Shown here: positions 24,293-43,980 of the stretch, in pieces
Position numbering within the stretch: the stretch's first letter is position 1
Layout: each line of letters starts with the position of its first letter
Assembly (NCBI RefSeq): GCF_019969845.1
Contig: NZ_JAHXYR010000004.1
Span: 248,001 to 312,000, forward strand
DNA: 64,000 nt
Direction of reading: 5' to 3'
DNA from: Sphingobacterium sp. GVS05A
GTDB lineage: Bacteria > Bacteroidota > Bacteroidia > Sphingobacteriales > Sphingobacteriaceae
Notes under the pieces: model-generated
The model's database searches: none
The model's input: the letters and a program-made list of their open reading frames with translations, nothing else
What the model was told of the DNA's origin: nothing
Translations under genes and position numbers: made by a program

Positions 24293-24310
24293 TAGAATAA
24301 TTGTTTTTCC

Positions 24311-25333: not shown

Positions 25334-25340
25334 AGCTGGT

Positions 25341-26570
25341 TTATGTGATTAAATTGTAAAAATTACTGATAGCGAGGGCGACGAGCAATACGAGTCCTAA
25401 AATCGCCCACAATTTCGTCAATGGTTTGTTTTGGAGATCACCCATGATCTCCTTATCATTAGCGACAAGAAATAAGACAATACCAATAAATGGGACAAGG
25501 AAAATGGTGATGCTTTGCGCGAAAACAATAAGTTCTAGGGGTAGATTCCCGAAGATAAGTGCAATGACAGAACCAAAAATCATCACTAGGGATATGAACA
25601 GTTTGACTTTTGGGTGGTTTAGGTTATTGCCATATCCAAAAGTATCACCGAGTAACGAACCCCCAAGGACGGCATTTCCAATTAAGGAAGAAAAAGAAGC
25701 ACCAAAGAGACCAATGAAAAAGAGGTGCGAAGCGTAGGTTCCCAAAAGTGGCTCCAGCGCACGGCCCATTTCGGCTGCCGAACTCAGTTTAATGCCTTGT
25801 GGATGCAGTGTGTTCGCTGCACAAACCATCACCGCCGCACTCATGATACCAAGAATAATAATGCCAATCCGGCTTCCCATAAGCTGCCTTTGAGTCGTCT
25901 GCTGATCGTTGGATAATTTGCGTCTGGATTGCACCAGATAACTCTGATAGAAGGCGCCCACGATCGAAAAACAAGAAGCTGTAAAAGCGATGATCAGACC
26001 TACCGAGCTTGGTGGAATACTGGGTACAAATCCTTTGAAAAAGTCAGCTATAGGAGTCTCAATCATAATCGCTGTTGAAAGAAAGGCAAAGAGCATAAGA
26101 ATAATCAGTGCCAGCATTAATTTTTCCAGCAACGCATAAAATGATTTAAAGAAAAGCAGCAGGATACCGATCACGTTAAACACAATAATCCATATTTGGG
26201 GATTTGTCCCTGTTGCTTCTGAGATGGAGATTGATACCCCCGTCGCATTGCCCGATTGGAAACAGGTAGCGACAAGAAAAATACCGATACCAATAATGAT
26301 GGCTGTTGTTTTTCCAAACTTATTACGAATCAAAGCGAGCAGGGATTCGTCACGGGCAATACCGATACGTGCCGCCATATTGGTGAAGACTGTCATAAAA
26401 CAGATGGCAACAACCACAACCCAAAGGAGTGAAAAGCCGTAATCAGCACCCATTTTTGACGTAATAGTCATTTTGCTTGGGCCAAAAACCAAAGCCGCGG
26501 TAATGATTCCTGGCCCTAGGATGGATAGCCAGTTTTTGAATAAGGAGCGTTTAGGAGCTTGTTGTTCCAT
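25341..26570 (-). CDS. Nramp-superfamily membrane transporter lacking the metal-binding motifs
   Basis: This 409-residue inner-membrane protein has about 11 hydrophobic helices. The first helix, L-G-P-G-I-I-T-A-A-L-V-F-G-P-S-K, aligns with the Nramp TM1 pattern G-P-G-F...D-P-G-N, but the metal-binding Asp and Asn are replaced (G30-P31-S32-K33). The helix 6 segment F-S-I-V-G-A-F-Y-Q-S-Y-L-V-Q-S-R-R aligns with M-P-H-N-x-Y-L-H-S-x-x-V-Q-T-R, and the M-P-H metal site is S-I-V. It is therefore an Nramp-like fold without the known Mn/Fe site. It sits in a catabolic operon, between the sugar dehydrogenase and the epimerase-like gene. I infer that it moves the organic substrate or product of this operon, not a transition metal. 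Confidence 0.82.
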   Translation of the reverse strand: MEQQAPKRSLFKNWLSILGPGIITAALVFGPSKMTITSKMGADYGFSLLWVVVVAICFMTVFTNMAARIGIARDESLLALIRNKFGKTTAIIIGIGIFLVATCFQSGNATGVSISISEATGTNPQIWIIVFNVIGILLLFFKSFYALLEKLMLALIILMLFAFLSTAIMIETPIADFFKGFVPSIPPSSVGLIIAFTASCFSIVGAFYQSYLVQSRRKLSNDQQTTQRQLMGSRIGIIILGIMSAAVMVCAANTLHPQGIKLSSAAEMGRALEPLLGTYASHLFFIGLFGASFSSLIGNAVLGGSLLGDTFGYGNNLNHPKVKLFISLVMIFGSVIALIFGNLPLELIVFAQSITIFLVPFIGIVLFLVANDKEIMGDLQNKPLTKLWAILGLVLLVALAISNFYNLIT

Positions 26571-26574
26571 AAAT

Positions 26575-28098
26575 TTAGCGTAATGAGGTTAAGTTTTGTT
26601 GGTTGATTTTAGTCGCATTATTCCCAAAATGAGTTCGAATATAATTTGCAACCGCGATGACTTCCTCGTCTTTGAGAAACGAAAATGCCGGCATTGCGCC
26701 CTCATATTTGACTCCATTGATCGATTGACCGTTCAGCCCATGCAAGAGCAGTTTTAGAAGTGCTTTTGGTTCACCATTGACCATCGTTGACTGTGCTAAT
26801 GGCGGAAACGTATTTGTGAGTCCCTTGCCATCAGATTTGTGGCAGGAAGTGCAGTAAGAATCGTATAATGTTTGTCCGTTTTTTACACCGGGCACGATAC
26901 TGTTGGCCGTTTGTGGCTTGAGGATAGGGGACACGGCTTTATCTGAAAGCCGTAGCCGGTAAATTACATCATCATCTGGTTTCGGAAATCCTTTTTGTGG
27001 ATTCCAGTCCCTGTTGCTGGAACAGAAGTAAATATCACCATTGGGTAAAACCAGCACCGAACGCAGGCGGCCAAGTTGATCTTTAAATAGAACTTTTTCA
27101 TCGGTTATCTTTTTGCCATCGGCTGATAATTTCAAAATCCGTAAGGACTGATTTTTTAGCGTTGCTAAAATCAAACTGTTCTGCCATTCCGGAATAGTAG
27201 CGATACCATAATAAGCCATTCCGGAGGGGGCAACAACTGGTGTCCACGATTTAATGGGTTCAGTTCGAGGGCTTAGCTTGGCTATGGCTTTCTCCTTTTC
27301 GGTATCAATCATACCTTCAATTTGCGGCCAGCCATAATTTTTAAGGGGCTGGATAAGATTAATCTCATCCTCAATGGCATCCCCGTGTTCGGAGGTGTAG
27401 ATCGTTCCTTTGTCGTCATGGGTAAGTCCCTGCATATTACGGAAACCCCAGGCATAAACATAACTGTTTGCTATCGGATTATCCGAAGGAATTGTACCAT
27501 CCAGGTTTAACCGCAAGATCTTTCCATTTAACGAACTGCTATCCTGTGCAAAGGTATCGCTTGCAGCGTCGCCTGTCGCCCAATAGACTTTTTTGTCAGA
27601 AGATACAATGACACGTGAACCGTTGTGTCCCGTATTGCCCGGTATCTGTAATAGGCGCTTTGGGTTGGACAGTCTGCCATCGGCACTGTAATCGTAGCGA
27701 TATAAATTTGAAAAAATAAGACTGTCTCTTTTACTGGTATACGAAAGATAGAGATAGGCCTGCTCGTGTTCGGGCTGATACAAAGACATGCCTAACAGTC
27801 CGAGCGTACGCTGATGGTAGACATCTTTTAAGCTATCGACTAAACTGACCCTTTTTGTCCGTATATCCAGTCTACGGATACTTCCACCAATTTCCGAAAA
27901 TAAGATAGCCTGATTTACATGATCGTATTGTAAGTCCCATGGAACCTGTAGGCCAGTGGCCTCTTTGGATAAAGAAAGTATGCTGTTCTCCAATTGGATG
28001 CTATTGATTATCACTGTCTCCTTTTCGTCCCCGAGAGAACAGGAAGATAGAAAGGACGTCAATAGCAATAGCCAAATACAGTTTATTTGTTGTTTCAT
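26575..28098 (-). CDS. PQQ-type soluble sugar dehydrogenase fused to cytochrome c, lipoprotein
   Basis: This 507-residue lipoprotein (lipobox L-S-S-C at about 17-20) has two domains. Residues about 40-385 form a six-bladed propeller of the soluble glucose/sorbosone dehydrogenase family: G-L-Q-V-P-W-D-L-Q-Y, G-H-N-G-S-R, Y-A-W-G-F-R-N-M-Q-G-L and E-H-G-D-A-I-E-D-E-I-N are typical. Residues about 400-495 are a class I cytochrome c with C-T-S-C-H-K-S-D-G-K-G for haem attachment and A-M-P-A-F for the distal Met ligand. The product should sit in the periplasm or envelope, oxidise a sugar to its lactone, and pass electrons to the respiratory chain. It is the first gene of the minus-strand operon; the next start is 4 bases past its stop. 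PQQ dependence is inferred from family. Confidence 0.88.
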   Translation of the reverse strand: MKQQINCIWLLLLTSFLSSCSLGDEKETVIINSIQLENSILSLSKEATGLQVPWDLQYDHVNQAILFSEIGGSIRRLDIRTKRVSLVDSLKDVYHQRTLGLLGMSLYQPEHEQAYLYLSYTSKRDSLIFSNLYRYDYSADGRLSNPKRLLQIPGNTGHNGSRVIVSSDKKVYWATGDAASDTFAQDSSSLNGKILRLNLDGTIPSDNPIANSYVYAWGFRNMQGLTHDDKGTIYTSEHGDAIEDEINLIQPLKNYGWPQIEGMIDTEKEKAIAKLSPRTEPIKSWTPVVAPSGMAYYGIATIPEWQNSLILATLKNQSLRILKLSADGKKITDEKVLFKDQLGRLRSVLVLPNGDIYFCSSNRDWNPQKGFPKPDDDVIYRLRLSDKAVSPILKPQTANSIVPGVKNGQTLYDSYCTSCHKSDGKGLTNTFPPLAQSTMVNGEPKALLKLLLHGLNGQSINGVKYEGAMPAFSFLKDEEVIAVANYIRTHFGNNATKINQQNLTSLR

Positions 28099-28138: not shown

Positions 28139-28170
28139 CAAAATTAGTTTATTAAAAATAAATATACAAA
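28139..28170 (-). promoter_or_regulatory. Bacteroidota-type promoter of the sugar-dehydrogenase operon
   Basis: Read on the minus strand, TTTG at 28170-28167 and TAATTTTG (matching TAnnTTTG) at 28146-28139 are separated by 20 bp, the spacing known for Bacteroidota promoters. The predicted start of transcription is about 35 bases before the ATG at 28098. A perfect TTTGTATACAAA palindrome lies 11 bp upstream of the -33 element. Confidence 0.6.
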
Positions 28171-28181
28171 AAATAATGTAA

Positions 28182-28193
28182 TTTGTATACAAA
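28182..28193. promoter_or_regulatory. Putative GntR/FCD operator, site 1
   Basis: A perfect 12-bp palindrome, TTTGTATACAAA, in the 375-base divergent spacer between the sugar-dehydrogenase operon and the susC operon. The same core recurs at 28320, 36056 and 37570. Binding by the GntR protein encoded at 36068 is inferred from this recurrence. Confidence 0.65.
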
Positions 28194-28319
28194 ATAACAG
28201 AAAATACATTGCTAAATTCGATTTAGTGTTCTCGTTAATTAATTCTATAGATGATTTTATTAGGTTAATCTGTATTTGTTGTGAATACTGTTTTGTAAAA
28301 AAGTAAAAAAAATACTTAA

Positions 28320-28329
28320 TTGTATACAA
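28320..28329. promoter_or_regulatory. Putative GntR/FCD operator, site 2
   Basis: A perfect 10-bp palindrome, TTGTATACAA, 144 bases before the susC start and 138 bases from site 1. A degenerate copy (TTGTATTCAC) follows at 28343-28352. The rest of the spacer is very AT-rich; I found no confident plus-strand promoter in it. Confidence 0.65.
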
Positions 28330-28473
28330 AAATTATATATTATTGTATTCACTATGATGAAGTATGGGAGCGGAGTTATTATAAATTATAAAGACAAAAC
28401 GCCGCTTCTTTAAAATACCAATAAACTGAAGAGCTTATAAATCATTTATTTAACCACTTTAACCTGAGTATTC

Positions 28474-31400
28474 ATGATACTAAAACAGATTAAAATCCGG
28501 GATGTGATAAACAGGAACTGCCTTTTGGTCGGACTACCTTTTATTTCAATGGGTGCATTTGCCACTGTTCCGTCTTTTCCTCGTTTGGAAAAGATTCCCA
28601 TTCAACGCGTTCTTACTTCGGCCGGGGGCGCAGTAAATTTTCAACAGCAGATTGTTGGGCAGGTGCTCGATGCGAAAGGTCAGCCTTTGGCTGGGGTAGA
28701 GGTGCGCAATCTTAAAAACTCATCTGTTACGGTGACAGATCAGGAGGGACGGTTTAAAGTGAATGGGTCTTCTTCGGATCAGATTCAGTTTCGCCTGATC
28801 GGTTTTAGTACAAAGGTAGCCCCGGCTAGGGATGTGCAGGCTTTGGTGCTTGAAACGAATGAAAGTGCCCTGGATGAAGTTGTTGTGGTTGGTTATGGGA
28901 AGCAGAAGAAAGAGAATCTAACGGGGTCTGTTTCCAGTGTCAGGTTTGATGAGTCAACGGTGAGCCGGCCAAATATGAATTTGGCTTCCGCTTTGGTCGG
29001 TAAAGCTTCAGGACTTAATATCGCGCAGACCTCCGGTAGTCCGGGTGCGGAAGGGTTTGATCTGTTGATTCGTGGCAAGGGGACAATGAATGATGCTTCT
29101 CCTCTGGTTGTCATTGATGGGGTACCCGGTGCGCTGAATGATGTCAATCCCAATGATGTGGAAAGCATATCCGTGTTGAAGGATGCGTCATCGGCTGCAA
29201 TATATGGTTCCCGGGCTGCGAATGGCGTTATATTGGTAACCACCAAGCGCGGGAAGGGAGAAGATTTTACAGTAACCTATAATGGGTACTTCGGGCGTCA
29301 GCAGGCGGCTAAAAATATCGGTTTTATAACCGATATGGCAACCCATATGGAGCTTGTTAATGAGTCGGAGGGGCGAGAAAAATATAGTGCTGAATTAATT
29401 GATACCTGGAGAAAGGAGTCGGCGGTCGGTAATCCGCTGTATCCAAATACAGATTGGTACAAGGAAATGCTGAATACTTCACCGTTAACCGAACATATGC
29501 TCTCTGTTCGTGGCGGTGGTAAAAAAGGAAACTTTGCCATGTCCTTGGGTTTTCTGGATAATAAAGGGGTCGTGGATAATTCTGGTTATAAAAAATATGA
29601 TTTTCGGATCAATGCCGATACGAAGATCAAGAATATATTGACATTGGGCGGAAATGTTTTTGGTACCTGGTCAAACCGGCAACCCTTGGATGTAAATAGC
29701 TTTTTTGGAGCGATCCGTAATACGACGCCGGGAGTTGTGCCGCAGTATGAGGACGGGCGTTATGGCGGGGAGATGTTCCCGGGGCTCCCTCAGGGGGCTA
29801 ATCCAAGAGCTTATGTTGATAATATCCGGGGAGATTACGAAAGGCAAAAGCTTGGATTTAAGTTTTTTAGTATAGTGAATTTCATGGAGAATCTGGAGTG
29901 GGAGAGCAGTTTTGGTTTTAATTACAATAATAACAGGAATTGGGAATATGTGCGTCCTTATTCATTGTGGAACTTACAGACTGGATTGGAATATCAAAAA
30001 AAGCCAAGTGTAAGTAGTTTGTTCAATGGCAGTATCCGCAATTATACAACGGTGCTGAATACCTTGTTGCGGTACCGCGAAACAATTGCAGAAAATCATC
30101 ATTTGGCAGTCTTGCTGGGTTTTGATCAGCAGTATAACCGTATGGACAAATTTGATGCAAAAAAGAATGATATATTGGGGGATGATGCGATCTATATTCT
30201 GGATGCGGGGGCAAACCTCGAAGCGATCAATGGTTCCGGGACAGATGATGCCCTCCAGTCTTATTTTGGTCGTCTGAATTATGATTTCAAAGGAAAGTAT
30301 CTATTTGAAGCAAATGCGCGCTATGACGGTTCTTCCCGATTTGCAAAGCAGAATAGATGGGGTTTCTTTCCATCCTTTTCAGCTGGCTGGCGTGTAACAG
30401 AGGAGGAGTTTGCTCAGCCTTTGAAAACAGTATTTGATGAAATTAAAATTCGTGGTTCATGGGGTCGGTTGGGGAATAATAGAATCGGGGATTACACCTA
30501 TCAGGTGGTATACGGTTCTTATTTGTACCCATTCGGTGGTCAGTTGAAGCAGGGGGTGGCGCCAAAGGAAATCGCGAACAGTAAAATAAAGTGGGAAACG
30601 ACAACGATTGCTAATATCGGTTTAGATCTTGCTCTATTGAAGAATAGGTTGACTTTTAGTGCCGAATATTTTGATCGCAATACATCTGATATCCTGACGA
30701 GGATCCCTATTCCGATGGTGATGGGTAACTTTTCACCGCCTTGGCAAAATGTTGCCGAGATGCGTAACAGAGGGGTTGATCTTCAGCTTGGATATTTTGG
30801 GAAAGTGGGTGCAGATTGGTCCTATAGTCTGAATGGGAACTTATCCTTCCTGAATAATAAAGTGATTAAGTTTAATGGCAACAGATCAATCAATGAAAGT
30901 TATATTACTATGGAAGGAAAGCCTTTCAATAGTTTCTTTATGCTCGAGTTTGATCGGATTATACAGGATCAAAGTGAAATTGATCAATTGAAGGCAGATG
31001 GTTATACTTTTGGGACGTATGTGGGCGGAGAGCCTAAGCCCGGGGATCTATTGTACAAAGATGTGAACGGTGATAAGGTGTTTAATGAGGAGGATCGGGT
31101 TGTCAAGAATTATTCGGCATTGCCAAAAGTTACTTATGGACTGAGTCTGAGTGCAGGTTATAAAGGTTTTGATCTGAATGTTGTGGCACAGGGTGTTAGT
31201 GGTGTGAAGCAATATTGGGGAAACGACGGTTTTAATACATTTAATATCAATGAAGGCTTCCTGCAGAATGCGGAGATTTTAAATCGCTGGACGCCTGAAA
31301 ACCATTCTACTGAATATCCACGATTGCGTACTTCTGGAAGTGCTTTAAATACTGTGTATAGTGATTATTGGTTGCAGAATACGTCGTTTTTAAGAATAAA

Positions 31401-31590
31401 ATCGCTACAGCTGGGTTATGCTTTACCAAAAGATGCTTCGGCAAAATTTAAAGTGGATAGGTTACGTGTATTCGCTAATCTGGAAAATTACTTCACATTC
31501 ACAAAGTTCAAAGGTTATAATCCGGAGAATGCCAGTGTCTCTTATCCCTTAATGAAACAATGGGTAGTTGGTTTAAATGTAACATTTTAA
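28474..31590 (+). CDS. SusC/RagA-family TonB-linked outer-membrane receptor (locus 2)
   Basis: This is a 1038-residue outer-membrane importer. After a rather long N-terminal region (signal sequence about 10-30; F-I-S-M-G-A-F-A) come a CarboxypepD_reg-like domain (about 60-125; G-Q-V-L-D-A-K-G-Q-P-L-A-G-V-E-V), the D-E-V-V-V-V-G-Y-G-K-Q-K-K-E-N-L-T-G-S-V segment (about 134-153), the plug (about 155-260, with L-K-D-A-S-S-A-A-I-Y-G-S-R-A-A-N-G), and a barrel ending in L-N-V-T-F. The paired SusD gene starts 11 bases downstream. It is controlled from the divergent spacer that holds two TTGTATACAA palindromes, so a GntR repressor, not an HTCS or ECF sigma system, probably governs this pair. The codons look more G-rich than in PUL 1, by eye only. 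Confidence 0.96.
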   Translation: MILKQIKIRDVINRNCLLVGLPFISMGAFATVPSFPRLEKIPIQRVLTSAGGAVNFQQQIVGQVLDAKGQPLAGVEVRNLKNSSVTVTDQEGRFKVNGSSSDQIQFRLIGFSTKVAPARDVQALVLETNESALDEVVVVGYGKQKKENLTGSVSSVRFDESTVSRPNMNLASALVGKASGLNIAQTSGSPGAEGFDLLIRGKGTMNDASPLVVIDGVPGALNDVNPNDVESISVLKDASSAAIYGSRAANGVILVTTKRGKGEDFTVTYNGYFGRQQAAKNIGFITDMATHMELVNESEGREKYSAELIDTWRKESAVGNPLYPNTDWYKEMLNTSPLTEHMLSVRGGGKKGNFAMSLGFLDNKGVVDNSGYKKYDFRINADTKIKNILTLGGNVFGTWSNRQPLDVNSFFGAIRNTTPGVVPQYEDGRYGGEMFPGLPQGANPRAYVDNIRGDYERQKLGFKFFSIVNFMENLEWESSFGFNYNNNRNWEYVRPYSLWNLQTGLEYQKKPSVSSLFNGSIRNYTTVLNTLLRYRETIAENHHLAVLLGFDQQYNRMDKFDAKKNDILGDDAIYILDAGANLEAINGSGTDDALQSYFGRLNYDFKGKYLFEANARYDGSSRFAKQNRWGFFPSFSAGWRVTEEEFAQPLKTVFDEIKIRGSWGRLGNNRIGDYTYQVVYGSYLYPFGGQLKQGVAPKEIANSKIKWETTTIANIGLDLALLKNRLTFSAEYFDRNTSDILTRIPIPMVMGNFSPPWQNVAEMRNRGVDLQLGYFGKVGADWSYSLNGNLSFLNNKVIKFNGNRSINESYITMEGKPFNSFFMLEFDRIIQDQSEIDQLKADGYTFGTYVGGEPKPGDLLYKDVNGDKVFNEEDRVVKNYSALPKVTYGLSLSAGYKGFDLNVVAQGVSGVKQYWGNDGFNTFNINEGFLQNAEILNRWTPENHSTEYPRLRTSGSALNTVYSDYWLQNTSFLRIKSLQLGYALPKDASAKFKVDRLRVFANLENYFTFTKFKGYNPENASVSYPLMKQWVVGLNVTF

Positions 31591-31601
31591 GACGAAAAGC
31601 C

Positions 31602-33218
31602 ATGATTAAGAAATTTAACAAAATAATAATTGCATCACTTGCATTGGCGCTACTAAGCTCTTGTAGTGATTTTTTGGATCGAAACTCATTGGTCGGTCTA
31701 TCGGAGGAGAGTTTTTGGAAGTCTGAGCAAGATGCTGTCATGGGGGTGAACACCCTTTACCATGCCAATCGGGAATTTACCAATAGTATCGTGATTTATG
31801 GGATGATGGATGATTTTACTGATATATCCTATCAGTCTTTTGCAACAGGATTGACAACGGGTGTTTTTCCTGCCAATGCAGGTTTTTACCTAACCTCCTG
31901 GGGGATCTTTTTTAAAGGAGTGTATCGTGCAAATACGGCCTTAAAGAATATTCCTGCTATCGCAATGAGTGAAGCGATAAAAAAACGGAGTATTGGTGAA
32001 GCCAAGTTTTTCCGGGGGTATTTTTATTTTAAATTATGGGATTATTTCGGTGGAGTTCCTTTATATGACAGTCCCATCAATGTGGATGAATCTTATGAGC
32101 CCCGGAATACGGAGAAAGAGGTGTATGAGTTTATTGTCAAAGATATGACCGAAGCTTATGAGACATTGCCAGATACTTATGATGCTTCAAATAGGGGGCG
32201 TGTAACCAAATGGGCGGCTCTTGCCATGCGGGGCAAAGCGCATCTTTGGGCGAAGGAATATGCAAAAGCCGCTGCTGATTTTAAGGAGCTGATGGATAAA
32301 AGTGACCGCAAATTGCTTGCTGATTTTCATACTTTGTTTCGGGTTGCTGGCAATAACAATAGCGAAGTGATCTTTGATGTGCAATATATTGCTGAGCAGG
32401 GGCACGGTATAGCGACCGATCGTAATTACGGAAATGCACGGGGTGCGACGACAGGATCCCAAAGGACAAGGCCAACACCTCAGCTTGTCAATGCTTTTGA
32501 TATGGAGGATGGAACAGCTTTTAATTTTGCAAATTATACCAATGCAAAAGGGCTGCCTTTTAACCCTAATAGTGCGGAGGATTGGAAAGATGAGGCTTCG
32601 GTGCGTAAGCTTTTTGAAAAACGGGATCCGCGTCTGCAGCAGTCTATTGTTGTGCCATGGTCGACTTTTGTGGGGCGCGGAGGTGTGACTTATCTGTATA
32701 AGTTTCCGGTGGCGAGCACCGATCCGAATGCTTATGTACCTGTGTGGACAAATGGCAGTTATGCATGGCGCAAATTTGTGGAGACGGGCTCTGTTTATAC
32801 GCTTCAGGATAATATGCCGCAAAACTTTCCATTGATTCGCCTGGCGGATGTACTGCTGATGTATGCTGAAGCAAAGAATGAGACCTTGGGTGCGCCTGAC
32901 CAAACGGTTTATGATGCAGTGAATGCGGTTCGTAAAAGAGTTAAAATGCCTGATCTGCCTTCTGGAATGAACAAAGAGCTCATGCGTGAAAAAATACGCC
33001 ATGAACGTATGGTGGAGCTGGCTGGTGAGGGGCAGCGGTATTCGGATATCCGACGATGGAAGATCGCTAAAGATGTCGTGGATAAAGTTTGGATGACAGA
33101 TTTTAACGGGACTCAGATCAGACAGCGGGGTTTTCCGGACCATTATTATCTGTGGCCTATTCCGCAGGCGGAAAGGGATGTGAATCCAAAGTTGACACAA
33201 AATCCGGGCTGGGAGTAG
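31602..33218 (+). CDS. SusD/RagB-family glycan-binding lipoprotein (locus 2)
   Basis: This 538-residue lipoprotein has its lipobox in L-L-S-S-C (about residues 16-20) followed by S-D-F-L-D-R-N. Family motifs include R-G-Y-F-Y-F-K-L-W-D-Y-F-G-G-V-P-L-Y, L-A-D-V-L-L-M-Y-A-E-A-K-N-E and R-H-E-R-M-V-E-L-A-G-E-G-Q-R-Y-S-D-I-R-R-W. The C-terminus ends in N-P-G-W-E. I chose the ATG at 31602, 11 bases after the SusC stop; an upstream in-frame ATG at 31560 lies within susC and would place 14 residues before the signal peptide. It forms the surface binding partner of the SusC above and precedes the lyase gene, with which it is probably co-transcribed. Confidence 0.94.
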   Translation: MIKKFNKIIIASLALALLSSCSDFLDRNSLVGLSEESFWKSEQDAVMGVNTLYHANREFTNSIVIYGMMDDFTDISYQSFATGLTTGVFPANAGFYLTSWGIFFKGVYRANTALKNIPAIAMSEAIKKRSIGEAKFFRGYFYFKLWDYFGGVPLYDSPINVDESYEPRNTEKEVYEFIVKDMTEAYETLPDTYDASNRGRVTKWAALAMRGKAHLWAKEYAKAAADFKELMDKSDRKLLADFHTLFRVAGNNNSEVIFDVQYIAEQGHGIATDRNYGNARGATTGSQRTRPTPQLVNAFDMEDGTAFNFANYTNAKGLPFNPNSAEDWKDEASVRKLFEKRDPRLQQSIVVPWSTFVGRGGVTYLYKFPVASTDPNAYVPVWTNGSYAWRKFVETGSVYTLQDNMPQNFPLIRLADVLLMYAEAKNETLGAPDQTVYDAVNAVRKRVKMPDLPSGMNKELMREKIRHERMVELAGEGQRYSDIRRWKIAKDVVDKVWMTDFNGTQIRQRGFPDHYYLWPIPQAERDVNPKLTQNPGWE

Positions 33219-33273
33219 AAATACTTCCACCGGTTGGCTAAATAGTTGTATTGTATCATTGGTAATGAGTTTG

Positions 33274-35997
33274 ATGAAAACATATTTTTCGTTGTTTTTG
33301 GTGTTGGTATTAACGCCAGTTTCCTACGCGCAGCAAAAAGAGATTCTGGTTGACTTGAGTCGGGGTGACTTAAATAAAAAGACCGTCGTTTATGAAAAAC
33401 CAAAGGGAGGAAGTGGGCAGGGGCTGGTGTTGAAAAACGTTCCCCTTGCCGGTTACCCTGATCGTTTGGCAGATATTGAAGTTACGGTTAAGGTGCCACA
33501 GGCTGGGTGGTATGTGCTGGAGTCAGATGCCCGGCCTCAGGATCTGGAGCGGTTAAAACAGGAAGATGAAACAGGTCTAATGACAAAAGTCGCCTATTTT
33601 CAACTGGGTAGACAGCGGGTGACAAAACGTATAGTGTATGATAATCTGAAAGGTGGGCATCAGGAGCTTGGGAAATTTGAGTTGCTGAATGCAGCGGAAA
33701 AATTGAAAATCTGGCTACCTGCAAATTTAATGTTGCAGAGTTTGCGCCTCAGGCCTTATGTTCCACCTGTGGCACCTTTAGCGGCTGTACATTATCAGCC
33801 TAAAATTACGCCAGCGCAAGAAAGGCCAAGGTTGTGGGTGAATAAAGAAAGTTTGCCTGTTGTCAGGGAACGGCTTTTGTCTGAAGAGAATGGTTCGGCA
33901 TGGGCTAAAGTGAAAGCCTCGGCTTTAATGCCCTATACCTTTCCGACCAATGAACATCAGGAAATGTTTTACAATGAAGGGCTGGAGCATGTTATTGAGC
34001 AGAAAGCTTTTTACTACCTCATGACGCAGGATGAGCGGATTGGCCGGGAAGCTGTGGATCTTGCTTCGCGTTATTTGTCGGTTCTGGAATTTGGGAATGT
34101 AACACATGGTGATATTACCCGTGAATTGGGACGGGCGATCTATACAGGGGCGCTGGTCTATGATTGGTGTTATCCACTGATGGATGCCGTTGTTAAAAGT
34201 CAGATGCGGAAAGACTTTAAGCGGTTGGTCATGGATATGGAGGTGGGGTGGCCGCCATTTTACGGACTGGAAAGTATTATAAACGGCCATGGTAATGAAG
34301 CGCAGATCTGCCGGGATATGCTGTCCTGGAGTTTGGCTGTATATGATGAAGATCCTGAGCCCTATAAATATGTTGCTTATAGCGTGCTGGAGCAGCTTGT
34401 GCCGATGCGTAAGTTTGAATATCAGTCTCCACGGCACAACCAGGGGGTTGACTATGGTGGTTATCGTTTTGGCTGGGAGATGCATGCTGCCTGGTTGTAT
34501 TATCGTATGCTGGGTTATCCCGTATTTGATGATAACATCAAGAATATGCCCTATTATTGGTTGTACATGCGTACACCCGACGGGAAAATGCTGCGTGATG
34601 GCGATATGTTTAATGTGAAATATAATTCCAGTGATGATTTTTATTGGAAGAACCCTCAGACAATGCTTCTTTGTTACGCTTATTCGGGAAATGCAATGAT
34701 CAAGGCCGAATTTTTGAAACAGGGTGGTTTGCCTGATAATCCCGTGCTATTTCTGTTGTTAAATGATCCGAAGCTCAAAGCGGATTTCGATCGCTCAAAG
34801 CTGCCGCTGACCAAAGATTTTGGGCCTGTTTTGGGGGCTATGGTTGCCCGGACAGGATGGAGTGAGGAGAAGACAAGTAAGGATGTCGTTGCGGAGATAA
34901 AAGGTGGTGGTTATCATTTTGGAAATCATCAACATGCGGATGCCGGTGCCTTACAGATTTATCATCATGGTATTCAGGTGGGTGATCTGGGTTTATATCT
35001 TTCTTATGGATCACCTTATGACTTTAATTTTAATAAGCGCTCCGCGGCGCACAGTATGCTATTGGTTCGCGATCCTGCCGAGCCGCTCTTGTTCCGGACC
35101 AAAACTAATGATGGTGGGACGCGCTTTAGTCAGCGCTTTCCGCGTACCGTAGCGGAGGTGCTCGGTGACTCCTGGTACCACACCGGAGAAATTAGGGCTT
35201 CGGCATTTGGTCCGGATCCTATCCAGCCGGCTTACAGTTACTTTAATGCGGACCTGACTGCGGCCTATTCGTCCAAAGTGAAATCGTATGCAAAGAGTTT
35301 TCTGTTTTTGAATCTGAAACGAAAAGATGTGCCTGCTGCTATTGTGTTATTGGATGAATTGAAAACCAATAATAGCGAATTTCAGCCCTACTGGCAGATT
35401 AATACGCTGAATAAACCGGTCATTAATGGAGCAGGGTTTGTTTTGAATAATCAGTTTAAAGCTGTGGGCGGGACGACCTATGTCGATATGTTTAAGCCTG
35501 CGGTATTCGATAGGGAGGTGAACGTTTATGCTGGTGATTCCACGGCTTTTGTATTTGGGGACCTGTATCAGGTGAAATCGCCTTGGCCTGAGGCGCGGGG
35601 TGCGCGGGTTTTGGTTAGCCCAAAAGCCAAAAGTACGCAGGTGAGCTATGCGACGGTTTTTCAGATGGCGGAAAGTGCCGAAGCAAAATTACCGGTGAGT
35701 TATGAAGAAAAGGAAGATTATTACCTGATCCGGATTGCAGATCGCGTGCTCGTTATTGCGAAACCCGATCGGTATCTCGATAAAGCGGTTGAAATCGCTG
35801 TTCCTGCTGGCCAGGAATACGAAGTGATTGTTGTGGGCTTGAAAGATGGTTTCTGGAATGTGAAAAATCCATCGAAAAATAGTAGCTTTAATATAAATAT
35901 CCTCAAAGGGAATCATACGACCAGTTGGAAATCTAAGGCAGAACTATTCTATTTGTCACCGGGGAGACAGTATGGTGCCCGTGAAGGGGCGTTTTAG
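33274..35997 (+). CDS. Heparinase II/III-family polysaccharide lyase, exported
   Basis: This 907-residue protein has a signal peptide (K-T-Y-F-S-L-F-L-V-L-V-L-T, cleavage near S-Y-A-Q), an N-terminal beta region (about 20-170), an (alpha/alpha) toroid domain (about 180-480, including I-I-N-G-H-G-N-E-A-Q), and a C-terminal antiparallel beta-sandwich domain of the Hepar_II_III type. The latter carries G-G-Y-H-F-G-N-H-Q-H-A-D-A-G (H552, H554, D556), the conserved block of the family. Members cleave uronate-containing glycans by beta-elimination (heparin, heparan, alginate, or other uronans). The exact PL family is not decided here. In-frame ATGs at 33259 and 33265 are alternatives; 33274 gives the best signal peptide. 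It is the only secreted depolymerase in locus 2, so it should define the polymer attacked. Confidence 0.85.
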   Translation: MKTYFSLFLVLVLTPVSYAQQKEILVDLSRGDLNKKTVVYEKPKGGSGQGLVLKNVPLAGYPDRLADIEVTVKVPQAGWYVLESDARPQDLERLKQEDETGLMTKVAYFQLGRQRVTKRIVYDNLKGGHQELGKFELLNAAEKLKIWLPANLMLQSLRLRPYVPPVAPLAAVHYQPKITPAQERPRLWVNKESLPVVRERLLSEENGSAWAKVKASALMPYTFPTNEHQEMFYNEGLEHVIEQKAFYYLMTQDERIGREAVDLASRYLSVLEFGNVTHGDITRELGRAIYTGALVYDWCYPLMDAVVKSQMRKDFKRLVMDMEVGWPPFYGLESIINGHGNEAQICRDMLSWSLAVYDEDPEPYKYVAYSVLEQLVPMRKFEYQSPRHNQGVDYGGYRFGWEMHAAWLYYRMLGYPVFDDNIKNMPYYWLYMRTPDGKMLRDGDMFNVKYNSSDDFYWKNPQTMLLCYAYSGNAMIKAEFLKQGGLPDNPVLFLLLNDPKLKADFDRSKLPLTKDFGPVLGAMVARTGWSEEKTSKDVVAEIKGGGYHFGNHQHADAGALQIYHHGIQVGDLGLYLSYGSPYDFNFNKRSAAHSMLLVRDPAEPLLFRTKTNDGGTRFSQRFPRTVAEVLGDSWYHTGEIRASAFGPDPIQPAYSYFNADLTAAYSSKVKSYAKSFLFLNLKRKDVPAAIVLLDELKTNNSEFQPYWQINTLNKPVINGAGFVLNNQFKAVGGTTYVDMFKPAVFDREVNVYAGDSTAFVFGDLYQVKSPWPEARGARVLVSPKAKSTQVSYATVFQMAESAEAKLPVSYEEKEDYYLIRIADRVLVIAKPDRYLDKAVEIAVPAGQEYEVIVVGLKDGFWNVKNPSKNSSFNINILKGNHTTSWKSKAELFYLSPGRQYGAREGAF

Positions 35998-36041
35998 TAA
36001 AGGAATATATTGTTTAAATTTTTTAAATGATTTTGTATTCT

Positions 36042-36067
36042 TATTTTTGTATAAAATTGTATACAAT
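36042..36067 (+). promoter_or_regulatory. -7 element and putative autoregulatory operator of the gntR gene
   Basis: TATTTTTG at 36042-36049 matches TAnnTTTG; no well-spaced TTTG is visible upstream. A perfect 12-bp palindrome, ATTGTATACAAT, at 36056-36067 ends on the base before the ATG at 36068. A regulator bound there would block its own transcription or translation start. Confidence 0.65.
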
Positions 36068-36706
36068 ATGAAAGAGGATTCACTTGCCAATAGAGTTTAT
36101 TTAGAAGTCCGCAAGAAGATTTTATCAAGTCAGCTCGCCGGTGGGGCGCGGTTGGTTGAAAGTGCCTGGGCTGATAAGTTGGCTGTAAGCAGGGTAGCTG
36201 TTCGCGAAGCCTTTATGCGTTTGGCGGGAGAGAGTCTGGTGGAGTTTGGTGAAAAAGGAGGTTGTTTTGTGAAAAAGATGACCGTCGAGGATGTGCGGGA
36301 TATCCGTGAGCTGCGTGAATTGCTTGAAGTCGGTGCTTTAAAGATTTTGTTTTCAAAAAAGAATAAGGAACTGATTGATGATTTGGAATTGATCTGCAAT
36401 GACTTTTCGGATATGGTGAGCAAAGGGTACTATGGTGGAGCCTGTGAGGCTGATGTGCGCTTTCATGAACGTATTATCGAAGGTACTTGCAATTCCAGAT
36501 TAATTGCTATTTATAAAAATAGCAATATTCCTTTATTTCACATGAAATTAGGTGCCATTCTGGGGCAGATGGAGGATTATCTGGATACCGAACAAGAGCA
36601 TCGTGCAATTGTGGATGCATTAAAAGCGAATGATTGGAACAAGGCTTATGAGACGTTGGTGCATCACCTCGATCGAGGTGAGCAGGAAGCTTTGGAGCTT
36701 GTGTAA
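36068..36706 (+). CDS. GntR-family transcriptional regulator, FCD (FadR-type) subfamily
   Basis: This 212-residue DNA-binding regulator has an N-terminal winged helix (about 1-70: L-A-N-R-V-Y-L-E-V-R-K-K-I-L, then D-K-L-A-V-S-R-V-A-V-R-E-A-F-M-R-L). The C-terminal all-helical FCD ligand-binding domain (about 77-205) shows the metal-binding set D119, H123, H168 and H190 (A-D-V-R-F-H, E-H-R-A-I, V-H-H-L). I set the start at ATG 36068: the frame is open upstream to 35972, but that stretch overlaps the lyase gene and covers the promoter and operator. FCD regulators commonly respond to sugar acids or other carboxylates, which suits the neighbouring enzymes. It lies centrally in locus 2, and its likely operators occur at four promoter regions. 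Confidence 0.92.
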   Translation: MKEDSLANRVYLEVRKKILSSQLAGGARLVESAWADKLAVSRVAVREAFMRLAGESLVEFGEKGGCFVKKMTVEDVRDIRELRELLEVGALKILFSKKNKELIDDLELICNDFSDMVSKGYYGGACEADVRFHERIIEGTCNSRLIAIYKNSNIPLFHMKLGAILGQMEDYLDTEQEHRAIVDALKANDWNKAYETLVHHLDRGEQEALELV

Positions 36707-36731
36707 AGTCTCGCTGGAATATACAAAAGAC

Positions 36732-36763
36732 AAGGGGATATATATTATAATATCCCCTTTTTT
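36732..36763. terminator. Terminator between convergent gntR and SMP-30 genes
   Basis: A perfect 10-bp stem (AAGGGGATAT, 36732-36741, with 36750-36759) and 8-base loop is followed by a T-run on the plus strand, ending gntR transcription. The stop codon of the minus-strand SMP-30 gene (36745-36747) falls inside the loop. On the minus strand only a weak T-rich end follows. Confidence 0.8.
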
Positions 36764-37542
36764 GTGTGATTCAGTTGGAGTAATTGACCCTTTTCTGCTT
36801 CTGTAATAATCAGTCCCATCGTTCCGCATGGGTCTAAAGCGCAGTTGGTAGGGTTTTGTCCTGCTGTTTGAATTTTTTCAGTGGCTATGCCGCTTTGATC
36901 CAGTGCGAGGATGTGCCCTGAGCCATATATGGCAACAAATAAATTGCCTTCCTCATCAAATGCGAGCCCATCGGGTCCGATCTGTCCACCTGCAAGTGCA
37001 AATTTTTCAATGGAATCCATTTGACATGATAAGGCATTCCAGTTCATTTTCCAGATCCATTTACTGCCTGTTTCGGCAATATATAATTGGCTGCTGTTGG
37101 GGGCAAAGGCTAGTCCGTTCGGATAGTACATGTTCTGATGGACGACATGCGCCATGCCATTGGTCCTTAGGCAGCAGATATAGCCTGTTCCATCTGTCAA
37201 TTCGCTCCCCGGACAGGTAAATAACAGATTTCCGTTGCTGTCAAAACATAAGTCATTGGGCATTTTTAATGCTTTGTTGTCGAGTTCATTCAGGAGTGTA
37301 TCGCAGCTGTTGTTGGTGGGATTATACCTGCGGATGCTGTGTTGTAATGCATCGCAGAACCAGATTGTTCCGTCTGGCGCAACGGCAATTCCGTTGGGAT
37401 GCCCGTCAACCTGTATGCGATCGTACTTGTTGTCCCTGTAGCGGATTAGGTTGCCGGCTTCTTTTTCTACCAGCCATATCGTGCCTTGCTGATCAAAGGC
37501 GGGGCCTTCCGGAAAGTGTAGACCGTCAATAAGTATATTCAT
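36745..37542 (-). CDS. SMP-30/gluconolactonase-family lactonase
   Basis: This 265-residue protein is a six-bladed propeller of the SMP-30/Gluconolactonase/LRE family. Motifs are F-P-E-G-P-A-F (E of the metal site), P-N-G-I-A-V-A-P-D-G, M-P-N-D-L-C-F-D (N and D), Y-Y-P-N-G-L-A-F-A-P and G-P-D-G-L-A-F-D-E-E-G-N. It has no signal peptide and so should work in the cytoplasm, hydrolysing aldono- or uronolactones to the open acids. I use the ATG at 37542 because the 12 upstream residues (to 37578) are K/I/F-rich and overlap the operator region. It diverges from the aminotransferase operon and shares with it two palindromic sites. Together with the sugar dehydrogenase and dehydratase, it fits a lactone-to-acid step. 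Confidence 0.88.
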   Translation of the reverse strand: MNILIDGLHFPEGPAFDQQGTIWLVEKEAGNLIRYRDNKYDRIQVDGHPNGIAVAPDGTIWFCDALQHSIRRYNPTNNSCDTLLNELDNKALKMPNDLCFDSNGNLLFTCPGSELTDGTGYICCLRTNGMAHVVHQNMYYPNGLAFAPNSSQLYIAETGSKWIWKMNWNALSCQMDSIEKFALAGGQIGPDGLAFDEEGNLFVAIYGSGHILALDQSGIATEKIQTAGQNPTNCALDPCGTMGLIITEAEKGQLLQLNHTKKGIL

Positions 37543-37568
37543 CTGAATTATTTTAAAATTTATTTTAA

Positions 37569-37600
37569 ATGTATACAAAAATATTGTAATTTGGTATACA
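37569..37600. promoter_or_regulatory. Paired GntR operator-like sites between SMP-30 and aminotransferase genes
   Basis: Two GTATAC cores lie at 37571-37576 (within ATGTATACAA) and 37594-37599 (within TTGGTATACA), 23 bp apart, close to two helical turns. The first overlaps a minus-strand TATTTTTG element (37583-37576) suited to the SMP-30 promoter. They match the TTGTATACAA sites seen at 28182, 28320 and 36056 with one mismatch or so. Confidence 0.6.
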
Positions 37601-37701: not shown

Positions 37702-39024
37702 ATGCAAGAAAACGAAAGATCAGCCGCAATACTGCGCGAGAATGCAAAATGGATACCAGGAGGTGTGGTATCGTTGAATAGGAAGTCGGACCCCAATATC
37801 TGCTTTGTTAAGGGAAGAGGTAGCCATGTGGAGGATATCGACGGAAATAGTTATATCGATTATCAGGCTGGATTTGCAGCTTCCTTTCTTGGTCATAATG
37901 ATCCCGATGTCAATGCTGCGGTATTGAAGACGCTTCAGGAGCAGCAGCTGCTGATGGGAGCGGGGCCTACTTTATTGGAAGGGGAGTTTGCGGAACTATT
38001 TTGTGCATCAGTTCCCAATGCCGAGAGTGTGCAGATTACGACAACGGGATCCGAGGCTACTTATCATGCGATCCGGATCGCCCGTGCGGTGACGGGACGC
38101 GATCATATCATCGTCATGCAGGGCGGATACAATGGTTGGCATAATGATGTGGCCTGCAATGTGATCAGCCAAAAAGCGGATATCGGATCTTATCAAAGTC
38201 CCGGTGAATACCCCTTTGACTCACTGAGCGCCGGGGTTCCCAAAAACCACAGTGATCTGGTGCATGTTATCAATTACAATGATTTGGATAGTGTTCGTTA
38301 TGTACTGCAGAAGTATTCAGTAGCCTGCATCTTATTGGAGCCTATTTTACAGAATATAGGTATCGTTAAGCCGCAAGCGGGATATCTGGAAGGACTTCGT
38401 AAGCTTGCAGATGAGCAGGGTTTCTTATTGATCTTTGACGAGGTAAAAACTGGATTTAGACATGCTTTAGGCGGTTATCAATCCATTTGTGGTGTTCAGC
38501 CAGATCTTTCCACCTTTGGCAAAGCGGTAGCGAATGGTTATCCTTTGGGAGTAATTGCAGGAAAGAAAAAGTACATGGATTATTTTGTTGATCCGGATAA
38601 AACCAAGCGGGTCATGATTGCGGGAACATTCAATGCTTTTCCGCTGACAACAGCTGCGGCAATTGCAACATTGAAAAAACTTTCTAGTCCTGAGCACCAG
38701 GTCTATAAGCATGTTGAACATCTGGGTGCACGCTTGGAACAGGGATATCAGGAAATATTTCCTAAATTAGGTGTACCATTTTATGTCGCTCGTCAAGGCT
38801 CGGCTTTCTGTACTTACTTTATGGATCATGCGCCACTTAATTTTCACGATATTCTGGATAATCATGATTTCGAATTGGATATCCGCTACCGCAAAAATCT
38901 CATAAAAGAAGGAATCTTTAATTTCCCGGCTGCAATTAAGCAGGGAAGTATTTCCTTTGCGCATACAGAAGATGATATTGACCGGACCTTAGAAGCGACA
39001 GCACGTGTAATAAAAACTTTGTAA
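37702..39024 (+). CDS. Class III PLP-dependent aminotransferase / glutamate-1-semialdehyde aminomutase-like
   Basis: This 440-residue fold-type I PLP enzyme has the class III motifs: [10 protein letters not shown] near the N-terminus, [15 protein letters not shown] (phosphate-binding region), [12 protein letters not shown] (PLP ring Asp), and [15 protein letters not shown] with the Schiff-base lysine K274. It resembles glutamate-1-semialdehyde aminomutases (HemL), but its place in a catabolic operon makes a haem role unlikely. It is the first gene of the plus-strand operon, with operator-like sites 100-130 bases upstream. It implies that the degraded compound carries, or receives, an amino group. 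Substrate unknown. Confidence 0.85.
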
Positions 39025-39032
39025 CCCTGACT

Positions 39033-40211
39033 ATGAAAATAACCGCTATCGAAACCTTTGTATGCCATGCGCGCATGCGAAATTGGATTTTTGTTAAAGT
39101 TGTAACCGATCAGCCCGGACTTTGGGGCTGGGGTGAGGCGACGTTGGAGTGGCATACACAAAGTGTCGTTGGTGCAATTAAAGATATTTCTCAGCTGTTG
39201 GTCGGCGAGGATCCACGCCGCATTGAGTATCTGTGGCAGATGATGTACCGCCAGCATTTTTGGCATGGGAACGGAATTGTCCGCGGAACGGCAATCAGTG
39301 GTATTGATATTGCCCTATGGGATATTTTAGGTAAAATTCATAATGTGCCCTGTCATGAATTATGGGGTGGTCGAGTACGGGATTATATCCGTCTCTATTG
39401 TCATTTGGGTGGTGGCCGAATGGAAGATTTTTACGAAACTGCACCTGACGACGCGAAACGTTTTGGCGATCTTGCCTTAAAGGCCGTTGATGAAGGTTTT
39501 ACGGCTTTTAAATCCATGGCTGTTCCGGAAACGATGTCCCTGGAAGGGCTTCGCCCGATTAAATATGCTGAAGCCTGTGTAAAGGCAATGCGCGATGCCG
39601 TGGGTGATGATATTGATATTATGGTAGATTGCCATGCACGTCCTAGTCCGCGCATGGGTATGCAATTTGCCAAGGCGCTAGAACCTTATGGTCTGTACTT
39701 TTTTGAGGAGCCATGCTGGCCCGAATCCATGGAGGATATTGCCCTGATCCAACGGGCAGTAGCGACACCTATCGCTTCCGGCGAACGCCTGATCGGTGTG
39801 CATGCTTTTCGGGATATGCTTGAAAAACGTGCGGTAAGTGTTATTCAGCCTGATATTACACATTGTGGTGGATTATCTGAAGCCCGCAAAATAGCTGCTT
39901 TGGCGGATGCTTATCGTGTGTCTATGGCGCCTCATAATCCACAGGGACCTGTAAGTACAGCTGCCTCTATTGAGTTGGGCTTCGCAACACCTTCGTACAT
40001 TATCTGTGAGAGTGTTCACAAAGATGTTGAATGGCGACAAGATGTCGTCAGTGAAGGATTTACGGTGCAAGAAAAAGGCCGTATTGTCTTCCCCAATACA
40101 AGAGCTGGTCTGGGTATTGAAATCAATGAAGAGGAGGTGAAAAAGCATCCGTTCCAACAAGAAATTTTACAGCGTACATTTTACAGAGATGGCAGTGTTG
40201 GGGACTGGTAG
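39033..40211 (+). CDS. Enolase-superfamily sugar acid dehydratase, D-galactonate dehydratase-like
   Basis: This 392-residue mandelate racemase/muconate-lactonizing family protein has metal ligands D199 (M-V-D-C-H-A-R), E225 (F-F-E-E-P) and E251 (A-S-G-E-R-L), with H201 and H301 (M-A-P-H-N-P-Q-G-P) as acid/base residues. All five are offset by exactly 16 from E. coli DgoD (D183, E209, E235, H185, H285), so it belongs to the galactonate/mannonate-dehydratase type subgroup. The expected reaction is dehydration of an aldonate to a 2-keto-3-deoxyaldonate. Its product would be a proper substrate for the DapA-type aldolase of the same regulon. The stereochemistry of the true substrate cannot be read, and fucose- or amino-sugar-derived acids remain possible. 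It starts 8 bases after the aminotransferase stop. Confidence 0.9.
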
Positions 40212-40223
40212 ATTTAAATAGAT

Positions 40224-40994
40224 ATGAGAGCAGAATATAAAAACAAAGTGGTTTTGATCAGTGGTGGACTTGGTGATATTGGCAGGGCAATAGCCGAGGC
40301 TTTCCTGACGGCGGAGGCAATTGTCTGTATTGCGGATCGTTTTGCACCAGCACTTGCGAAAGAGCGGTGGCCTTCGCTCGATGAATCTCAGACCAATCTA
40401 TTTTACGATCAGGTTGATGTTACGGATGCTGATCAGGTGGAGTTTTGGGTTGATCGTATAGAGCGGGAGTTTGGGGCAATAGCGATCTGTATTGCTAATG
40501 CGGCCTGTGTCACGATTCAAAACTTTCGGGAGCTCAGCAATGCAGCCTGGAAAAACGAAATGGCAGTCAATCTGGACGGTGCTTTTTTTCTGGCCAATGC
40601 CTGTGCTAAATCATTTGTAGCGACTGGTGTCCGGGGGAATATTGTCTTTTTGGGCAGTTGGGCAGGGCATGCTGTGCACCAGAACCTGCCGGCATACAGC
40701 GTTTCCAAAGCTGGCTTACGGATGCTTTGTCAAACCATGGCGCTTGAATATGCTATTGATGGAATCCGTGTCAACGAAATTGCACCCGGTTATGTCAACG
40801 CGGGCTTGAGTAAAGTGGTTTGGTCCAATGATGCCGCACTCCAAAAAAAGGCCGCTGCAGTAGTACCACTGGGAGATATCCTCGAAGCGGAGGAAATAGC
40901 CAAACAGGTGCTTTGGATATGCTCCGACAATTGCCGACAGATGACGGGGGTAAGTATCGTACTGGATGGCGGCCTCTCATTAATTAGACCTTAG
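40224..40994 (+). CDS. Classical short-chain dehydrogenase/reductase
   Basis: This 256-residue cytoplasmic SDR has the nucleotide motif G-G-L-G-D-I-G (about 14-20), an acidic residue at the end of the second strand (I-A-D-R) that favours NAD over NADP, I-A-N-A-A in place of N-N-A-G, S-W-A-G at the catalytic Ser position, and Y158-S-V-S-K162. The C-terminus has the usual D-G-G. The 3-base gap to the next gene and 12-base gap from the previous one show a tight operon. It likely oxidises or reduces a sugar or sugar acid intermediate of the pathway; the substrate is not defined by sequence. Confidence 0.88.
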   Translation: MRAEYKNKVVLISGGLGDIGRAIAEAFLTAEAIVCIADRFAPALAKERWPSLDESQTNLFYDQVDVTDADQVEFWVDRIEREFGAIAICIANAACVTIQNFRELSNAAWKNEMAVNLDGAFFLANACAKSFVATGVRGNIVFLGSWAGHAVHQNLPAYSVSKAGLRMLCQTMALEYAIDGIRVNEIAPGYVNAGLSKVVWSNDAALQKKAAAVVPLGDILEAEEIAKQVLWICSDNCRQMTGVSIVLDGGLSLIRP

Positions 40995-40997
40995 ATC

Positions 40998-43935: not shown

Positions 43936-43980
43936 CCTAACTTGTTGGACGATTCCTTATGAAAGTATCGTAACTGAAAT

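Follow-up and report, generated by a model that had tools for sequence, protein, structure and literature searches.

In this work we analysed 64,000 nucleotides of Sphingobacterium sp. GVS05A (contig NZ_JAHXYR010000004.1, positions 248,001 to 312,000), hereafter called the window, and focused on a recurrent palindrome and the regulator gene beside it. The gene lies on the plus strand at 36068..36706 and, judged by its Pfam domains, the starts of its orthologs and its FCD fold, encodes a GntR/FCD regulator of 212 residues. Copies of the palindrome were found in three intergenic gaps, namely the gap between a GSDH gene and a SusC gene, the gap 5' of the regulator, and the gap between an SMP-30/gluconolactonase-like (SGL) gene and an aminotransferase gene. 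A word scan of the window located the perfect decamer TTGTATACAA at 28183-28192, 28320-28329, and 36057-36066, and near copies at 37569 (ATGTATACAA, one mismatch) and 37592 (TGGTATACAT, two mismatches). An earlier sequence-only reading of this DNA had listed perfect palindromes at 28182, 28320, and 36056 and two near copies near 37570 and 37594, all in promoter gaps of one locus; our scan recovered each of them, with the 12-mers at 28182 and 36056 exact.

The palindrome ATTGTATACAAT at 36056..36067, which we regard as the autoregulatory site, abuts the regulator ATG at 36068, just as that reading had described. A listing of open reading frames (ORFs) starts the regulator frame upstream, at 35972, which would place the palindrome inside the frame. 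Because 11 orthologs align from the same start, we assigned the start to 36068. Other GTATAC words had been said to fall in coding sequence, and for those within two mismatches of the decamer (at 1378, 9791, 17439, 23671, and 27735) this was correct, as all lie within ORFs.

In the whole genome of 6.29 Mb, TTGTATACAA occurs perfectly 15 times, compared with 5 times for a reversed-word control. Three of these copies sit within 7.9 kb at the window locus, all of them intergenic, where 0.015 would be expected at the density of the other 12. Ten of the remaining 12 are inside ORFs of at least 70 residues (one of them, L010, may precede the true start of its ORF, judging from the N-terminus), and two are intergenic (L002 and L013). 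A motif equally common in intergenic DNA of the rest of the genome would have spoken against the operator proposal; this is not what was seen, with two intergenic perfect copies elsewhere and three here. Copies with up to two mismatches were only mildly enriched across the window (58 versus 43.8 expected), so that it is the perfect core, together with where it stands and how it is paired, that carries the signal.

Conservation, pairing and promoter position of the palindrome

In order to follow the word in other genomes, we used the loci of the best 80 of 101 relatives of the regulator, obtained from a scan of named genomes, with flanks of at most 10 kb per side (some shortened by contig ends) and genes called by a simple longest-ORF script. 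These loci are mutually related, and counts over them are not independent events. In 34 of the loci the regulator has Cys at residue 66 (C66 loci, the group of the window itself), and in 46 it has Tyr or Phe there (the second group). To thin near-duplicates, 18 and 20 representative loci were hand-picked from the 80, the 18 comprising 16 with Cys66 and two with Tyr66 (L098 and L113) and the 20 being all Tyr/Phe66; pair counts over all 80 or all 34 loci include near-duplicates.

The 8-mer at -10 to -3 of the regulator ATG was TGTATACA in 19 of the 34 C66 loci, TGTATGCA in 6, and TGAATACA in 3. Among the 256 palindromic 8-mers, TGTATACA ranked first in intergenic DNA of the 18 representatives, with 55 copies versus 0.5 expected under a first-order model, and their coding DNA, about 17 times as much sequence, held 13. 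Intergenic DNA of the 20 Tyr/Phe66 representatives contained TGTTTACA/TGTAAACA 37 times (1.9 expected) and TGTATACA 9 times (0.4 expected). The palindrome was kept at orthologous promoters across several genera. Over all loci, the C66 group had 108 AT-centred and 3 TT/AA-centred intergenic words, and the Tyr/Phe66 group had 18 and 92, respectively. A strict code of residue 66 was discarded, as L107, L108, L113, and L118 combine Tyr66 with AT sites; given these exceptions and the few independent changes, we treat such a code as a working hypothesis. Two of the four, L107 and L108 (Dyadobacter jiangsuensis and D. fermentans), carry two genes of the regulator group in one locus, and at the matched regulator gene TGTATACA abuts the ATG despite the Tyr in the wing.

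The sequence-only reading had missed that most of these palindromes come in pairs with a spacing of 23 bp. The window contains three such pairs, each also present in relatives. Pair 1, AATATACA-N15-TGTATACA at 28161..28191 (starts 28161/28184, two mismatches), lies on the GSDH side of the first gap, and pair 2, TGTATACA-N15-TGTATTCA at 28321..28351 (starts 28321/28344, one mismatch), on its SusC side. Pair 3, TGTATACA-N15-GGTATACA at 37570..37600 (starts 37570/37593, one mismatch), occupies the SGL/aminotransferase gap. When partners with at least 6 of 8 letters were accepted, and both members of a pair were counted if both were perfect, 42 of the 55 TGTATACA anchors in the 18 representatives had a partner at 23 bp, and the numbers at 20, 21, 22, 24, 25, 26, 13, and 33 bp were 0, 0, 0, 5, 4, 0, 1, and 0. 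The 20 representatives of the second group gave 29 of 37 anchors at 23 bp versus 0-2 at the same other distances. Over all 34 C66 loci, 82 of 108 intergenic anchors, in 32 loci, had a partner at exactly 23 bp, the next best distances between 9 and 60 bp being 47 bp (19 anchors) and 24 bp (13 anchors). The exact form TGTNNACA-N15-TGTNNACA was found 38 times in the 80 loci, and spacers of 11-14 and 16-20 were found not once.

Pairs were seen in Sphingobacterium, Pedobacter, Olivibacter, Niabella, Allomuricauda, Chitinophaga, Runella, Dyadobacter, and Larkinella. We then considered the centres of 17 structural tandem pairs of the second group in which both halves matched at least 7 of 8 letters. 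Ten had TT followed by AA, three AA/AA, three AT/AT, and one TT/AT; with TT on the left and AA on the right, the whole unit is mirror-symmetric in those pairs. Seven Phe66 loci of Dyadobacter (L099, L102, L103, L105, L106, L109, and L122) carry the variant TGTTGACA-N15-TGTTAACA, also with 23-bp spacing. We considered looping between pairs 1 and 2 but did not adopt it: in the representatives with two pairs before SusC, the distance from pair to pair varies from 106 to 163 bp, so that there is no fixed helical phase, and looping is neither supported nor excluded by it.

We also compared the position of the pairs with that of promoter boxes. The sigma-A -7 box of a flavobacterium is TAnnTTTG at -12 to -5 (PMC9723704). 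In 30 tandem pairs, a box whose last base is the G of the downstream palindrome was perfect in 17 and within one mismatch in 26. In the controls (the upstream palindrome, and both palindromes on the other strand), perfect boxes numbered 2, 3, and 2 of 30. The promoter of the regulator itself has a candidate -7 box, TATTTTTG, at 36042..36049 on the plus strand, which matches TAnnTTTG; transcription would then start near 36054, with the palindrome at about +3 to +14.

Finally, we asked how the pairs are distributed with respect to the regulator. In the genome of the window, the only two pairs with at most one mismatch are both in this locus. There are four pairs with two mismatches, one here and three inside ORFs, and 46 matches with up to three mismatches versus 25 for the reversed control (40 of the 46 having exactly three). 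A wider genomic regulon of double sites was thus unsupported at the level tested, the pairs with at most two mismatches elsewhere being all inside ORFs, and single-palindrome targets may exist elsewhere, for example at the intergenic perfect copies L002 and L013. Orthologs of the regulator (E <=1e-20, the weakest 1.6e-63) were present in 12 of 151 genomes of the family. A TGTATACA pair with at most one mismatch was found in 16 of the 151, versus 7 for the reversed control. All seven genomes with two pair matches carry the regulator, and an eighth (G057) has one match beside it; in these eight genomes the matches are on the same contig as the regulator gene and within 18 kb of it. The other eight genomes with a match lack the regulator and have a single match each, inside ORFs in six of the eight. 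Two genomes with the aminotransferase and no regulator (G026 and G074) had no TGTATACA pair at this threshold. Among 300 genomes, the exact pair TGTTTACA-N15-TGTAAACA occurred in one, G078, 158 bp from the regulator gene, and did not occur in G057, which also bears the regulator.

The regulator protein and its neighbourhood

The regulator belongs to the Pfam families GntR (9.4e-12, 44.9 bits, cut-off 27) and FCD (3.8e-19, 69.8 bits, cut-off 24.3). Its scores stayed below the curated cut-off of each of the 11 listed NCBIfam models, among them the PhnR equivalog (TIGR03338, 110.7 bits, cut-off 271.5), NanR (NF003011, 50 bits, cut-off 260), and UxuR (NF007588, 33.7 bits, cut-off 442). The best solved relatives were 7u5q and Atu1419 by single sequence, and PmiR (7xp0), 7u5q, TM0439, and Atu1419 by profile. 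We obtained an AlphaFold model of the monomer from an 11-sequence alignment, with a mean pLDDT of 86.9. In this model, six helices follow the winged domain after residue 72, and the closest solved folds are McbR (Z 21.5, root-mean-square deviation (rmsd) 3.0, 209 residues aligned) and AlkR/VanR (Z 21.1, rmsd 3.0, 203 aligned); the fold of Atu1419 gave Z 16.9 and rmsd 5.9 over 206 aligned residues. A six-helix effector domain is what we take to define the VanR-type subgroup, and as modelled the regulator resembles VanR-type FCD proteins in this respect.

D129, H133, H178, and H200 occupy what we assume to be the ligand positions of the VanR-type Asp/His metal site. The first three are present in 81 of 81 sequences, and H200 in 78 of 81, with Q in the other 3. 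These conserved residues suggest a carboxylate effector held by a metal, probably a sugar acid of the pathway. On the DNA-binding side, the DNA-contact residues named for Atu1419 are Glu34, Arg45, and, on the backbone, Arg49 (PMC7797058). These align with E31, R42, and R46 of the regulator, each invariant in 81 of 81 sequences, and Thr46 of Atu1419 aligns with Val43.

The surrounding genes fall into groups behind the three pairs and are the predicted targets. Upstream of the left operon is pair 1; its first gene encodes a GSDH/cytochrome c protein (26575..28098, minus strand), behind which the same strand carries genes for a transporter of the Nramp type, a product with no Pfam match, and a DHDPS-like protein (23234..26570). 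Pair 2 lies upstream of the plus-strand SusC, SusD, and heparinase-like genes (28474..35997), in which the names SusC and SusD come from reading the ORFs and not from a family search, and the third gene scores 410.7 bits against HepB, whose cut-off is 600. Pair 3 lies upstream of both the SGL gene (36745..37542, minus strand) and a plus-strand operon at 37702..46198 with genes for a class-III aminotransferase, a galactonate-dehydratase-like enzyme (332.8 bits, cut-off 311), an SDR, a ceramidase-like protein (24.1 bits against a Pfam cut-off of 32.1), and an SSS symporter, and two more ORFs.

Positions 37702-43935 of the window form a recurrent cassette of HemL-like aminotransferase, galactonate-dehydratase-like enzyme, SDR, ceramidase-like protein, and sodium symporter. 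Within the flanks of the 80 loci, we counted the aminotransferase in 55, the galactonate-dehydratase-like enzyme in 49, the ceramidase-like protein in 47, the SDR in 45, the symporter in 37, the heparinase-like protein in 36, SGL in 31, and GSDH in 29. SusC-type genes were present in 74 and SusD-type genes in 57 of the 80, often of a different subfamily.

Proposed operator function and alternative explanations

The palindrome is kept at orthologous promoters, and among the 151 family genomes two pair matches occur solely in those with the regulator, which ties the word to the 36068-36706 product. We consider it very likely that the palindrome is the operator of this product, predicted from the sequences compared here to be an autoregulated VanR-type GntR/FCD repressor of the surrounding sugar-acid locus, with a double operator at the promoters of the structural genes. 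From the observed motif, pairing, conservation, co-occurrence with the regulator, and box overlap at tandem promoters we infer binding and repression. The earlier proposal that the palindrome is the operator of this regulator has thereby gained comparative evidence, although its description was incomplete, as the unit is mostly double at 23 bp. Nor is the core word new for the FCD family, being already known from another member.

This member is Atu1419, a VanR-type FCD repressor of Agrobacterium fabrum (PDB 6z74, 6za0, 6za3, and 6za7; PMC7797058). Here and below, comparisons with published systems draw on parts of the cited papers. Atu1419 reads the core word TGTATACA (ATGTATACAT), and it resembles the present system in having a palindrome that overlies the -10 box, two sites within a single divergent region, and the DNA-contact residues. 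Its paired sites, however, are separated by 190 and 109 bp, and a tetramer was observed to loop the 190-bp pair, whereas the spacing here is fixed at 23 bp; the pathway is not the same either. AusR, the GntR-family repressor of alginate use in the flavobacterium Zobellia galactanivorans, likewise regulates a polysaccharide locus and is reported to bind single, double, or triple operator copies (Dudek et al., 2020, as described in PMC7874173). In the case of NanR, an FCD protein of Escherichia coli, several dimers bind cooperatively to one operator; however, this operator consists of (GGTATA)3 repeats and the cooperativity involves a 32-residue N-terminal extension (PMC8012715), while the winged helix of our regulator begins at residue 6. 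The FadR-subfamily survey described TKGT/ACMA boxes, for some groups with a centre of 2 nt, and it recognised a class of double sites whose spacing is constant, but its extra half-sites are at 7-12 nt (Suvorova et al., 2015; PMC4494728). The word at our locus, TTGT-AT-ACAA, agrees with the consensus of that subfamily (TKGT/ACMA with a 2- or 3-nt centre). The 634 FadR-subfamily regulators that the survey covered in 2015 included no Bacteroidetes (PMC4494728). Already described are thus FCD proteins as such, the core word, the placing of a palindrome over the -10 box, and the tetramer (Atu1419), as well as operators bound cooperatively by several dimers (NanR) and operators in several copies (AusR). 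In our searches of the open-licence literature we found no description of this regulator or of a 23-bp double palindrome, and a search with the operator word gave, among the matches listed, none on a GntR operator by title and start of abstract.

In the mechanism we propose, the unit at structural promoters would consist of two TGT-AT-ACA palindromes, 23 bp from centre to centre, most likely occupied by a pair of dimers or a single tetramer. The downstream palindrome of a tandem promoter would cover the -7 box and the predicted start, with the upstream palindrome ahead of the -7 box, so that bound protein would exclude RNA polymerase. The regulator would limit its own synthesis through the site at its own start, and a carboxylate intermediate of the pathway may bind the FCD pocket and cause release from the DNA.

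Several observations weigh against this reading. The autoregulatory site has no clean pair; its weak partner TGTATTCT at 36034..36041 lies 24 bp upstream of the core, and not 23. Six of the 34 C66 loci have other words at -10 of the regulator ATG, and two of these six (L052 and L054) carry TTGTATACAA further upstream in the same gap. Tyr/Phe66 loci account for 34 of the 38 exact pairs and C66 loci for only 4, so that in the group of the window the pairing rests on imperfect partners. Four of the 12 regulator genomes (G019, G078, G099, and G128) lack a TGTATACA pair at up to one mismatch; three of them have Tyr66 (L098, L100, and L096). The start points are taken from a consensus found in flavobacteria, and when one mismatch is allowed in the box, the tandem contrast shrinks to 26 of 30 versus 12, 15, and 6 of 30. 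The -7 overlap fails to convince at divergent promoters, where the other direction is about as good: 18 pairs nearer the right gene had no perfect and 11 one-mismatch boxes toward the gene, and 2 and 3 in the other direction, while 20 pairs nearer the left gene had 3 and 6 toward the gene, and 0 and 14 in the other direction.

How the double operator is read is a separate question. We tentatively suggest, while leaning to doubt, that a fixed double operator with mirror symmetry, merged with the Bacteroidota -7 box at tandem promoters, is read by one FCD tetramer, and that this grammar is kept over genera while the centre changes from AT to TT/AA as residue 66 changes from Cys to Tyr/Phe. A rather unlikely alternative is an independent dimer on each palindrome, 23 bp being merely promoter geometry. 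The downstream palindrome of tandem pairs is indeed tied to the -7 box, and Atu1419 binds single palindromes (PMC7797058); however, the spacing stays at 23 at divergent promoters with poor boxes, and the mirrored TT/AA centres in 10 of the 17 second-group tandem pairs suggest one symmetric complex.

Turning from the oligomer to the sign of regulation, the product could also be an activator whose double site helps to recruit polymerase. Site position does not fix the sign, and the overlap at divergent promoters is unconvincing, as noted above. We nevertheless judge activation improbable: the overlap of the tandem downstream palindrome with the -7 box of the gene strand, perfect in 17 of 30, favours exclusion of polymerase, and the relative Atu1419 is a repressor with its palindrome over the -10 box (PMC7797058).

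It is likewise quite improbable that the operator belongs to another regulator, of the FCD type or of another family, that controls the locus. The genome does have two further FCD genes, and the FadR subfamily has TKGT/ACMA half-sites in common (PMC4494728). Against this, the 20-kb stretches around the two genes contain no intergenic TGTATACA, one of them having TGT-N3-ACA instead; two pair matches occur solely with the present ortholog group among the 151 genomes; and the word abuts the start of the regulator itself in more than half of the C66 loci (19/34). That the word is no operator, and belongs to the promoters or the base composition of AT-rich DNA between genes, has a negligible probability: when preceded by TTTG it has letters in common with the -7 box, and with 58 two-mismatch copies the window is only mildly above chance, but no other palindrome among the 256 comes near its excess, and two pair matches occur in 7 of 151 genomes, each with the regulator, compared with at most one in regulator-less genomes.

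Under the operator reading, the grammar of this regulator is unusually clear. The word, its spacing, and its promoter position recur in dozens of genomes and provide a rule for predicting the regulons of the regulator. The fixed double operator lends itself to testing whether two dimers or a tetramer bind, and the two operator classes that occur naturally point to a wing residue as a candidate for specificity.

Two observations concern related loci. Five loci of Flavobacteriaceae, including Allomuricauda and Flagellimonas (L064, L070-L072, and L074), show a similar gene order and 70-75% regulator identity, which may reflect transfer between families. In the genome of the window, a second FCD gene, at L043 (G000:C2), lies next to genes that look like SusC/SusD types and is surrounded by four intergenic TGT-N3-ACA words (locus positions 9820, 10565, 15321, and 15414). 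These words, with their centre of three bases, are a candidate operator of that FCD paralog.

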